A DNA stretch of 64,000 bases from Halopseudomonas litoralis (lineage in GTDB: Bacteria; Pseudomonadota; Gammaproteobacteria; Pseudomonadales; Pseudomonadaceae). The notes below the pieces were generated by a model. It was not told the DNA's origin and ran no database searches. It was given only the letters and a program-made list of their open reading frames with translations. How positions within the stretch are numbered: position 1 is the stretch's first letter; the number at the start of each line of letters is the position of its first letter. The stretch is taken from positions 744,001 to 808,000 of the forward strand of contig NZ_LT629748.1 of NCBI RefSeq assembly GCF_900105005.1. The letters are read 5' to 3'. A program made the position numbers and the translations under genes. Shown in pieces: positions 42,447 through 46,221 of this stretch.

Positions 42447-44114
<1,668 letters not shown>

Positions 44115-44254: not shown

Positions 44255-44905
44255 TCAGGCGGTGGCGGCCTGCCGACCAGCCAACAGGCGCAGAATGGCG
44301 TTCAGCAAGATCCCGTACAGCGGAACGAACAGCATCAAGCTGATAGCCAGTTTGATGACATAGTCCACAGCGGCGATCTCCACCCAGTTGGCTGCCATGA
44401 ACGCATTGTCGCTGCGCCAGAAGGCCACGGAAAAGAACACGAAGGTATCGATCAGGTTGCCGACAATCATCGCGGCGCTGGGAGCCACCCACCATTGGGG
44501 GAGCTTGCGCAGGCGGTCAAAAACCTGGATGTCGAGAAACTGGCCGACCCCATAGGCGAGAAAGCTCGCCAGCGAGATACGCAGTACGAAGTGGTTCAGC
44601 TGATTCAAGGTATCAAAGCCACGGAAAGAGCCTTCCTGGAACAGCACAGAGAACACATAGGACACCAGCAGAGCCGGCAGCATGACCCGGGCGATGACTT
44701 TGCGCGCAGCTTGTTTACCGAGCAGGCGTACGGTCAGGTCGGTGGCCAGGAAAATGAATGGGAAGCTGAAGGCGCCCCAAGTGGTATGCCAGCCAAACAT
44801 AGAGAAGGGCAGCTGGACAAGATAGTTGCTGGCGATAATGATGAGAATGTGGAATGCGATCAGGCAGGACAGAGCCATGCGCAGGCGCGAGGGGGTCGAG
44901 TTCAT
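44255..44905 (-). CDS. yhhQ: Queuosine precursor (preQ0/preQ1) transporter YhhQ
   Basis: A 216-residue inner-membrane protein of the VUT (YhhQ/QueT) family that imports 7-deazaguanine precursors for queuosine in tRNA. Six or so helices are visible, with the family stretch SNYLVQLPFSMFGWHTTWGAF and the later GNLIDTFVFFSVAFW. The ATG at 44905 follows AAGG by 6 bases. That AAGG forms part of a preQ1-I-like aptamer immediately upstream, which supports the substrate call. Transcribed alone after a hairpin that separates it from the hydrolase gene. Confidence 0.93.
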   Translation of the reverse strand: MNSTPSRLRMALSCLIAFHILIIIASNYLVQLPFSMFGWHTTWGAFSFPFIFLATDLTVRLLGKQAARKVIARVMLPALLVSYVFSVLFQEGSFRGFDTLNQLNHFVLRISLASFLAYGVGQFLDIQVFDRLRKLPQWWVAPSAAMIVGNLIDTFVFFSVAFWRSDNAFMAANWVEIAAVDYVIKLAISLMLFVPLYGILLNAILRLLAGRQAATA

Positions 44906-44911
44906 GCAGCA

Positions 44912-44942
44912 CCTTTTTGAAGGATGGGGTTAGGGAACCCAT
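44912..44942 (-). promoter_or_regulatory. preQ1-I riboswitch aptamer controlling yhhQ
   Basis: The minus-strand leader fits the H-type pseudoknot of the preQ1-I class: stem 1 ATGGG (44942-44938) with CCCAT; loop TTCCCT; AACC with the preQ1-binding C; an A-rich loop 3 (CCTTCAAAAA); and a final GG pairing with CC. The order and lengths match the T. tengcongensis type II aptamer closely. The last GG is the Shine-Dalgarno of yhhQ, 6 bases before the ATG, so ligand binding should hide the ribosome site. Confidence 0.8.
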
Positions 44943-44978
44943 GTCGCCGGGATGGCGACGGCGCGTACTATACCTGTT

Positions 44979-45007
44979 TGCGGTGTTGGCTTCCAGCCAA
45001 CACCGCA
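44979..45007. terminator. Hairpin between epoxide-hydrolase-like gene and yhhQ
   Basis: A perfect 12-bp stem TGCGGTGTTGGC/GCCAACACCGCA with a 5-base loop lies 21 bases after the minus-strand hydrolase stop. It is followed by AAC rather than a T-run. Its position favours a terminator, but it could also belong to the yhhQ leader. Confidence 0.5.
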
Positions 45008-45028: not shown

Positions 45029-45988
45029 TCAATAATGTCGCTTGAGAAAATCCAGCAGCAGCGGATTCACCTCTTCCGGCTTCTGACTCTGTACCCAGTG
45101 ACCGCAGCGCTCGATCACGTGCTGCTCAACCTTGGGTATGACCTGGGGCATGCGTTCGATGGTGAAGGTTTCCAGCTTGGCGACCGGATCACGGTCGCCG
45201 ATGATGAATAGCGCAGGTTGCAGTATCTGCTTGCCGGCCAGATCAGCGGTGCGTTCCCAGTTGCGCTCATAGTTGCGATACCAGTTCAGCGGACCGTGAA
45301 AGCCATTGTCCAGATAGGTTTCCACATAGACCTCGAAGGCCTCTGGTGGACACCAGGCCGGCGGGACTTCAGGGTCCGAGTAATCGTCAAGCCAGCGCGA
45401 ATCAGCTGGCTTGTCCGAGATGAGGCCGTTGTAGCCACCGGAGGGGCGTCCGTGCATTACCTTACGCAACGTACGGGGGATATCCGCTTCCAGTTCCGCC
45501 TCGGCCGGGCCGGGCTCCTGAAAGTAGAGGATGTAGAGGAACTTGTCCTTGAAGCGCTCGCGCATCATCTCGATGACCGGGCGCTTAGGGCGGCCGCCGA
45601 AGGGCACGGACATGCCGGACACGACCTTGACCCGCTCCGGCTCGAATAGTGCCAGATACCAGGCGATGTTGGCGCCCCAGTCGTGGCCGACCATAGCTAC
45701 CTGCTGATGTCCGAAGTGATCCATCGCCGCCTGGATATCGCCGCACAGGGTAGGGATGTCATACGCCTCGATTGCAGCGGGCGCACTGCTGCGACCATAG
45801 CCGCGCATTTCCGGGGCGAATACGCGGTAGCCGGCGTCAGCCAGTGCCTGCATCTGATGGCGCCAGGAATACCAGCACTCGGGGAATCCATGCAGCAGCC
45901 AGACCGGCTGCCCATTGTCCGGTCCGGCGACATGCACGCTGAGCTGGATGTCATTGACATCCAGAATATGTTGTTCTGTTTGCAGCAT
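45029..45988 (-). CDS. Epoxide hydrolase-like alpha/beta hydrolase
   Basis: A 319-residue hydrolase. HGFPE (residues 33-37) and the nucleophile motif GHDWGA with Asp103 are typical of soluble epoxide hydrolases and haloalkane dehalogenases; the C-terminal His is in RCGHWVQSQKPEEV. Tyr residues of the lid are plausible near 150-220. An Asp nucleophile rather than Ser separates it from the other hydrolase in this window. ATG 45988 follows GGAGAG; a longer upstream start would add 62 non-conserved residues. Natural substrate unknown. Confidence 0.85.
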   Translation of the reverse strand: MLQTEQHILDVNDIQLSVHVAGPDNGQPVWLLHGFPECWYSWRHQMQALADAGYRVFAPEMRGYGRSSAPAAIEAYDIPTLCGDIQAAMDHFGHQQVAMVGHDWGANIAWYLALFEPERVKVVSGMSVPFGGRPKRPVIEMMRERFKDKFLYILYFQEPGPAEAELEADIPRTLRKVMHGRPSGGYNGLISDKPADSRWLDDYSDPEVPPAWCPPEAFEVYVETYLDNGFHGPLNWYRNYERNWERTADLAGKQILQPALFIIGDRDPVAKLETFTIERMPQVIPKVEQHVIERCGHWVQSQKPEEVNPLLLDFLKRHY

Positions 45989-46221
45989 GGGCACTCTCCG
46001 TTTTTGTTTGCCGCCACTATGGCAAATCCATTGCCGACCAGCTTGCTCTATTGGTCGGGCAAATATCATCTGCATGTTCTGACTTATCCAGTACCACCAA
46101 TAGCTGCAGTTTCTCCGGCGCCTTTGTGCCCTGTGCCGATCTGGATCACAGGATGCCAATTGTTCCTCGAGCATCTGGATAGAAGTGGCTTAAGGACGTG
46201 GGCGATGATTTTTCGGGCGAA

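Follow-up and report, generated by a model that had tools for sequence, protein, structure and literature searches.

The yhhQ locus and its leader

On the minus strand of the window, that is, the whole stretch of 64,000 nucleotides that was analyzed, positions 44255-44905 hold an ORF of 216 aa belonging to the yhhQ family of transporters for preQ0/preQ1, precursors of the tRNA modification queuosine, and this is the gene that the initial annotation had placed directly downstream of a riboswitch. The assignment rests on NCBIfam NF008406, the 7-cyano-7-deazaguanine/7-aminomethyl-7-deazaguanine (preQ0/preQ1) transporter (337.5 bits, cut-off 252), and on a Pfam match to Vut_1; among the matches listed in a search for relatives, which may leave out records very near the window, are the proteins of Halopseudomonas bauzanensis (89% over residues 6-215) and Candidatus Pseudomonas excrementavium (85% over 1-216), which makes Halopseudomonas or a near relative the probable source of the DNA. 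The same genome carries queF, the preQ0 reductase (368.9 bits). The adjoining ORF at 42447-44093 (minus strand) presumably encodes a LigB-type NAD-dependent DNA ligase, and the upstream ORF at 45029-46174 is one that we take to be hydrolase-like. Between the latter and the yhhQ leader, a 12-base perfect inverted repeat with a 5-base loop can be seen by eye (44979-45007), which is followed by no T run on either strand and is thus not an ordinary terminator.

Closer to the gene, a possible -10 element, TATAGT (44967-44972, minus strand), was recognized by eye here and in close relatives, the promoter scan of the window having called no promoter on the minus strand. The mRNA is predicted to start near 44960, and a hairpin that begins a few bases after TATAGT, GUCGCC-AUCCC-GGCGAC (44943-44959, minus strand, drawn by RNAfold), would perhaps form its 5′ end.

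Flush with this hairpin lies the candidate aptamer of 31 bases, at exactly the minus-strand positions, 44912-44942, where a stem, a C-rich loop, an A-rich stretch and a closing GG had been described. The 33 bases from 44944 to 44912 read ACAUGGGUUCCCUAACCCCAUCCUUCAAAAAGG, and are followed by UGCUGC and the AUG of yhhQ at 44905. The 5′ strand of helix P1, AUGGG (44938-44942), leads into a short pyrimidine-rich loop, UUCCCUAAC (44929-44937), whose Escherichia coli numbering follows PMC10622847; then come the 3′ strand of P1, CCCAU (44924-44928), a variable linker of 5 nt, CCUUC (44919-44923), and the A-rich L3 together with the Shine-Dalgarno (SD), AAAAAGG (44912-44918). The closing AAGG coincides with the SD of yhhQ, 6 nt before the AUG, so that the placing of the final GG in the ribosome site, also part of the initial annotation, is borne out. 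All the marks of type III described in passages of PMC11625349 are found at the site: UU follows the 5′ strand of P1, AC precedes its 3′ strand, and there is AAGG.

Further positions were mapped from E. coli. The anti-SD of the loop (C9 C10 U11 in E. coli numbering) would correspond to 44934-44932, A13 to 44930, the preQ1-reading C (C14 of the E. coli crystal construct) to 44929, and the first SD adenine, which contacts preQ1, to 44915, all on the minus strand; the predicted pairs of P2 are 44932-44914, 44933-44913 and 44934-44912. The partner bases of P2 are present at the site, and they are invariant in the loop pattern used, hence without covariation.

Occurrence of the motif and its detection by models

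The arrangement is not one expected by chance. Allowing up to 3 mismatches, the window has one copy of the 19-mer of P1, loop and P1, where 0.01 would be expected; it also has a single instance of the loop pattern with AAAAGG no more than 30 nt downstream, for which 100 shuffles gave none. A covariance model, R1, was built from 25 leaders, of E. coli and others, none of them from Pseudomonadaceae, picked from the distinct set with a 9-nt loop and no long linker; omitted among the non-Pseudomonadaceae were the leaders with an extra C, those with long linkers (L104, L105, L117 and L136), and L085, L092, L095 and L111, and the leader tails were left unaligned by MAFFT. With E-values that are rough by the search tool's own statement, R1 finds the site at 44.1 bits and E 1.4e-10 as the sole match in the window at E up to 10, and at E 8.8e-9 as the single match in the whole genome at E up to 0.1. 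Together with a core near-identical to that of the E. coli yhhQ leader, this supports the proposed preQ1-I class, more exactly its type III.

The Rfam models behave differently. At the gathering threshold the whole window gives no match to any family, and at E up to 10 no preQ1 family appears in the 501 bases around the site; for RF00522 (PreQ1, Rfam 15), which the initial annotation had put forward as a check, the gathering score is 39 bits, which the site does not reach. However, the same model also finds nothing at E up to 10 on the 6-kb yhhQ locus of E. coli (L051), and matches none of 12 further motif-bearing loci chosen out of 115, so that its silence at the site is uninformative and cannot refute the assignment. 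Over 58 related genomes, under strict filters, it gives only sub-threshold matches (0/58 above the cut-off), that of the window's own genome lying elsewhere, at 1988213; among 14 controls one is above the cut-off, and the E. coli match, whose place is not shown, is below it. The failure of RF00522 on type III sites thus looks like a limit of the model, and a negative Rfam scan cannot be taken to mean that type III preQ1 switches are lacking.

The distribution of the motif was followed at 122 yhhQ loci: those of the window and 29 relatives (the best 30 of 40), that of E. coli, the best 80 of 584, and 11 of the 12 from a class sample, the copy of the window's own genome (L137) having been dropped; L052-L056, which had been found via the motif itself, were excluded from the count. 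In these sets, which lean to close relatives, some of the same species, and amount to 90 distinct segments, TTCCCTN[AG]C followed by A3+GG is present at 115 loci, the window included, and absent from seven (L106, L115, L141, L142, L144, L147 and L148). In the evenly drawn class sample, it is present in 6 of the 11 other genomes that encode a close YhhQ; the motif before yhhQ is, then, not universal. Within the genus (37 genomes, own included) all 32 with yhhQ have an adjacent motif, and none of the five without yhhQ has one (G001, G011, G013, G014, which is 81% complete, and G024); two genus genomes give a second, weak R1 match (E 0.02 and 0.05). Among 252 class genomes, R1 matches 10 at E up to 0.1: five at E below 5e-4 (own included), all directly before yhhQ, and five at E 0.01-0.1 whose sequences, on inspection, look like chance. 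The plain pattern occurs in 5 of 274 class genomes, every one before yhhQ.

Loop positions 12-14 in the 115 leaders read AAC (52), CAC (50), TAC (5) or CGC (8). The last group (L061, L092, L095, L102, L103, L111, L124 and L127), in which the conserved A13 is replaced by G (UUCCCUCGC), spans several genera, among them Comamonas, Acidovorax, Aliivibrio, Serpens and Aliidiomarina, and in seven of the eight five Cs in a row follow; possibly this is a natural variation of the preQ1 pocket in which the two changes are coupled.

Among the titles listed in literature searches, none dealt with L3 hairpins or with type III preQ1 switches of Pseudomonas. The subtype reportedly goes back to McCown 2014. 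In PMC10622847, where type III is reported almost only before yhhQ in gamma-proteobacteria, the word "Pseudomonas" stands once, in a reference, and in PMC11625349 it does not occur. The present census shows the smallest type of preQ1 riboswitch to be well represented in the Pseudomonadaceae.

Covariation of P1 and the adjoining hairpins

The covariation of P1 was measured in the 25 selected distinct leaders, across proteobacteria, with shuffles and column slides as controls. Standard pairs fill 98.4% of the cells (81.8 in shuffles), 20 cells are changed on both sides (4.2 in shuffles, sd 1.6), and the covariation score is 0.489, where shuffles give 0.138 and slides of 1 to 3 columns do not exceed 0.220; three of the five pairs show changes on both sides, a value reached by 46 of 500 shuffles and so not clear of the controls, and the seven further pair types are reached by 93 of 500 shuffles, with eight at slide +3. 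P1 is therefore backed by compensatory changes across proteobacteria, two of the five measures not being clearly above shuffles. In a census of 68 distinct 23-base cores (in nine with five Cs, reading of the 3′ strand began one base later), all 68 have G-C as the innermost pair, the second is G-C in 66 and A-U in two, the third is G-C in 66 and a mismatch in two, and the fourth and fifth pairs are open in two and five cores, respectively. In Pseudomonadaceae, P1 is mostly AUGGG/CCCAU and hardly varies, which makes a covariation test inside Pseudomonas weak. Of the two stems whose covariation among related Pseudomonas leaders had been proposed as a check, the first covaries at the wider scale, whereas the bases of P2 hardly vary, leaving the pseudoknot without covariation support.

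As for the ligand-free state, RNAfold favors in the core of the window a helix GGGUU/AACCC (-4.9), one register over, to P1 (-3.9 kcal/mol); with a CAC loop the gap shrinks (-4.3 vs -3.9), and in the E. coli leader P1 is the best structure. Leaders with AAC loops may accordingly have a competing ligand-free register, a result to be taken only as a lead, since both the pseudoknot and the ligand lie outside what RNAfold models. Other pairings were considered and set aside: a long-range helix GCGCC/GGUGC, seen in a 64-nt fold, depends on bases that lie before the predicted start and, by eye, is not kept in relatives, and a pairing CCAU/AUGG of the 5′ hairpin with P1 has only four pairs and, by eye, does not track the changes of P1.

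The 5′ hairpin itself pairs in 98.5% of the cells in 11 distinct leaders, the window included, with two of six pairs changed on both sides (reached by 21 of 500 shuffles), a weak covariation. The upstream stretch of the window does not quite beat its shuffles (p 0.06). The 28-nt stretch gives p up to 0.05 in 27 of 101 distinct leaders, which are non-independent and in which hairpins elsewhere in the stretch were counted too; a flush hairpin is also drawn by RNAfold in five Aeromonas leaders (p 0.08-0.26). In E. coli (z 0.41) and P. viridiflava (z 0.17) this stretch is no better than shuffles, so the hairpin is not needed for the switch.

Between the fifth pair of P1 and the A run, the linker ranges from 0 to 51 nt, some linkers containing hairpins, and 5 nt is the commonest length (40 of 115 leaders). 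In nine leaders of the genus, seven of them distinct (L034-L037, L039, L043 and L046), linkers of 34-38 nt fold into a covarying hairpin within L3 that beats shuffles at p 0.008-0.048; when its pairs are listed sequence by sequence, the inner six are standard in all seven, and four of the six change in type. Among the long linkers of Halomonadaceae, that of L117 gives p 0.042, and those of L104 (0.11), L105 (0.74) and L136 (0.59) do not beat shuffles. A tentative reading, which we hold to be less probable than its contrary, would be that type III switches have gained structured add-ons that go beyond the consensus in PMC10622847 and PMC11625349, in the form of the flush 5′ hairpin, in the window's group, and of an L3 hairpin, in genus relatives and perhaps separately in Halomonas. 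The L3 hairpin would hold down the effective length of the linker as the spacing widens to 24-38 nt. If so, such add-ons could tune the affinity, the mRNA stability or the kinetics of the same switch.

The proposed switch and its known relatives

The sequence and position of the site, the family to which it belongs, the covariation of P1 and the co-occurrence with yhhQ all point to the same reading: 44942-44912 on the minus strand is very probably a class I type III preQ1 riboswitch, which would shut off the translation of yhhQ when preQ1 is present. For the ligand, the P2 pseudoknot and the direction of control, we infer the behavior of the site from its E. coli homologue. The nascent yhhQ mRNA would fold P1, and preQ1, if present, would pair with C 44929; the A-rich tail would then cross P1, and the CCU of the loop (44934-44932) would pair with the AGG of the SD (44914-44912). 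With the SD covered, the ribosome could not bind and no preQ0/preQ1 importer would be made. In the absence of preQ1 the pseudoknot would open, and yhhQ would be translated.

A near-palindrome such as ATGGG-N9-CCCAT, located downstream of a possible promoter, could also be imagined as the DNA operator of a yhhQ repressor, acting without any RNA structure. This is extremely unlikely, because the outer arms differ from lineage to lineage and for the most part remain able to pair, because what stays fixed is the loop TTCCCTN[AG]C, which is asymmetric, together with the A-rich SD farther away, and because the E. coli version binds preQ1 as RNA, according to passages of PMC10622847. It is very improbable, too, that a conserved leader hairpin tunes translation through structure or temperature only, with no ligand, a possibility suggested by the alternative ligand-free folds, among them the 4-pair hairpin CCUU-CAAA-AAGG that RNAfold draws over the SD in the window and at two other loci. 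The sequence of that hairpin is not conserved, being found in only 3 of 115 leaders, the window included, and the fixed bases of the loop coincide with the ones that touch preQ1 or the SD in the structure from E. coli, as far as it is described in passages of PMC10622847.

The type III riboswitch proposed here resembles in part type II, the kind found in Thermoanaerobacter tengcongensis and Bacillus subtilis and represented by RF00522: both follow the plan of an H-type pseudoknot, and both have AC before the 3′ strand of P1 (passages of PMC11625349). That the site should itself be a type II preQ1-I aptamer is almost inconceivable, however, given the UU after the 5′ strand of P1, the short pyrimidine-rich loop, the AAGG tail and the yhhQ target, which are type III features. 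In T. tengcongensis the loop includes a guanine, and a smaller part of the SD is buried (passages of PMC10622847); RF00522 does not detect the site.

The closest likeness is to the yhhQ leader of E. coli MG1655 (L051), which reads AUUGGG UUCCCUCAC CCCAAU GGUUAAUC AAAAAGG UACAAU AUG and is of class I type III. In passages of PMC10622847, its aptamer is described as crystallized with preQ1 (PDB 8fza), and a 36-mer RNA as binding preQ1 with a KD of about 58 nM; specificity comes from C14 of the crystal construct, P2 joins the loop to the SD through U11-A28, C10-G29 and C9-G30, the first SD adenine touches preQ1, and the deletion of one to three L3 nucleotides shifts the affinity up to about 4-fold. 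The natural linker variants collected here, from 0 to 51 nt, offer a ready series in which L3 length could be set against affinity. The two leaders share the downstream gene, the loop UUCCCU-N-AC, the AAAAAGG tail and the position of the SD; they differ in a single, variable base of the loop (A at 44931 as against C12 in E. coli), in the number of P1 pairs (five as against six), in the linker (5 as against 8 nt) and in the hairpin flush with the 5′ side of P1, which is a feature of the window. Judged by its sequence, the site belongs to a known subtype, the E. coli kind, of which it is a well-formed and ordinary example with minor variations.
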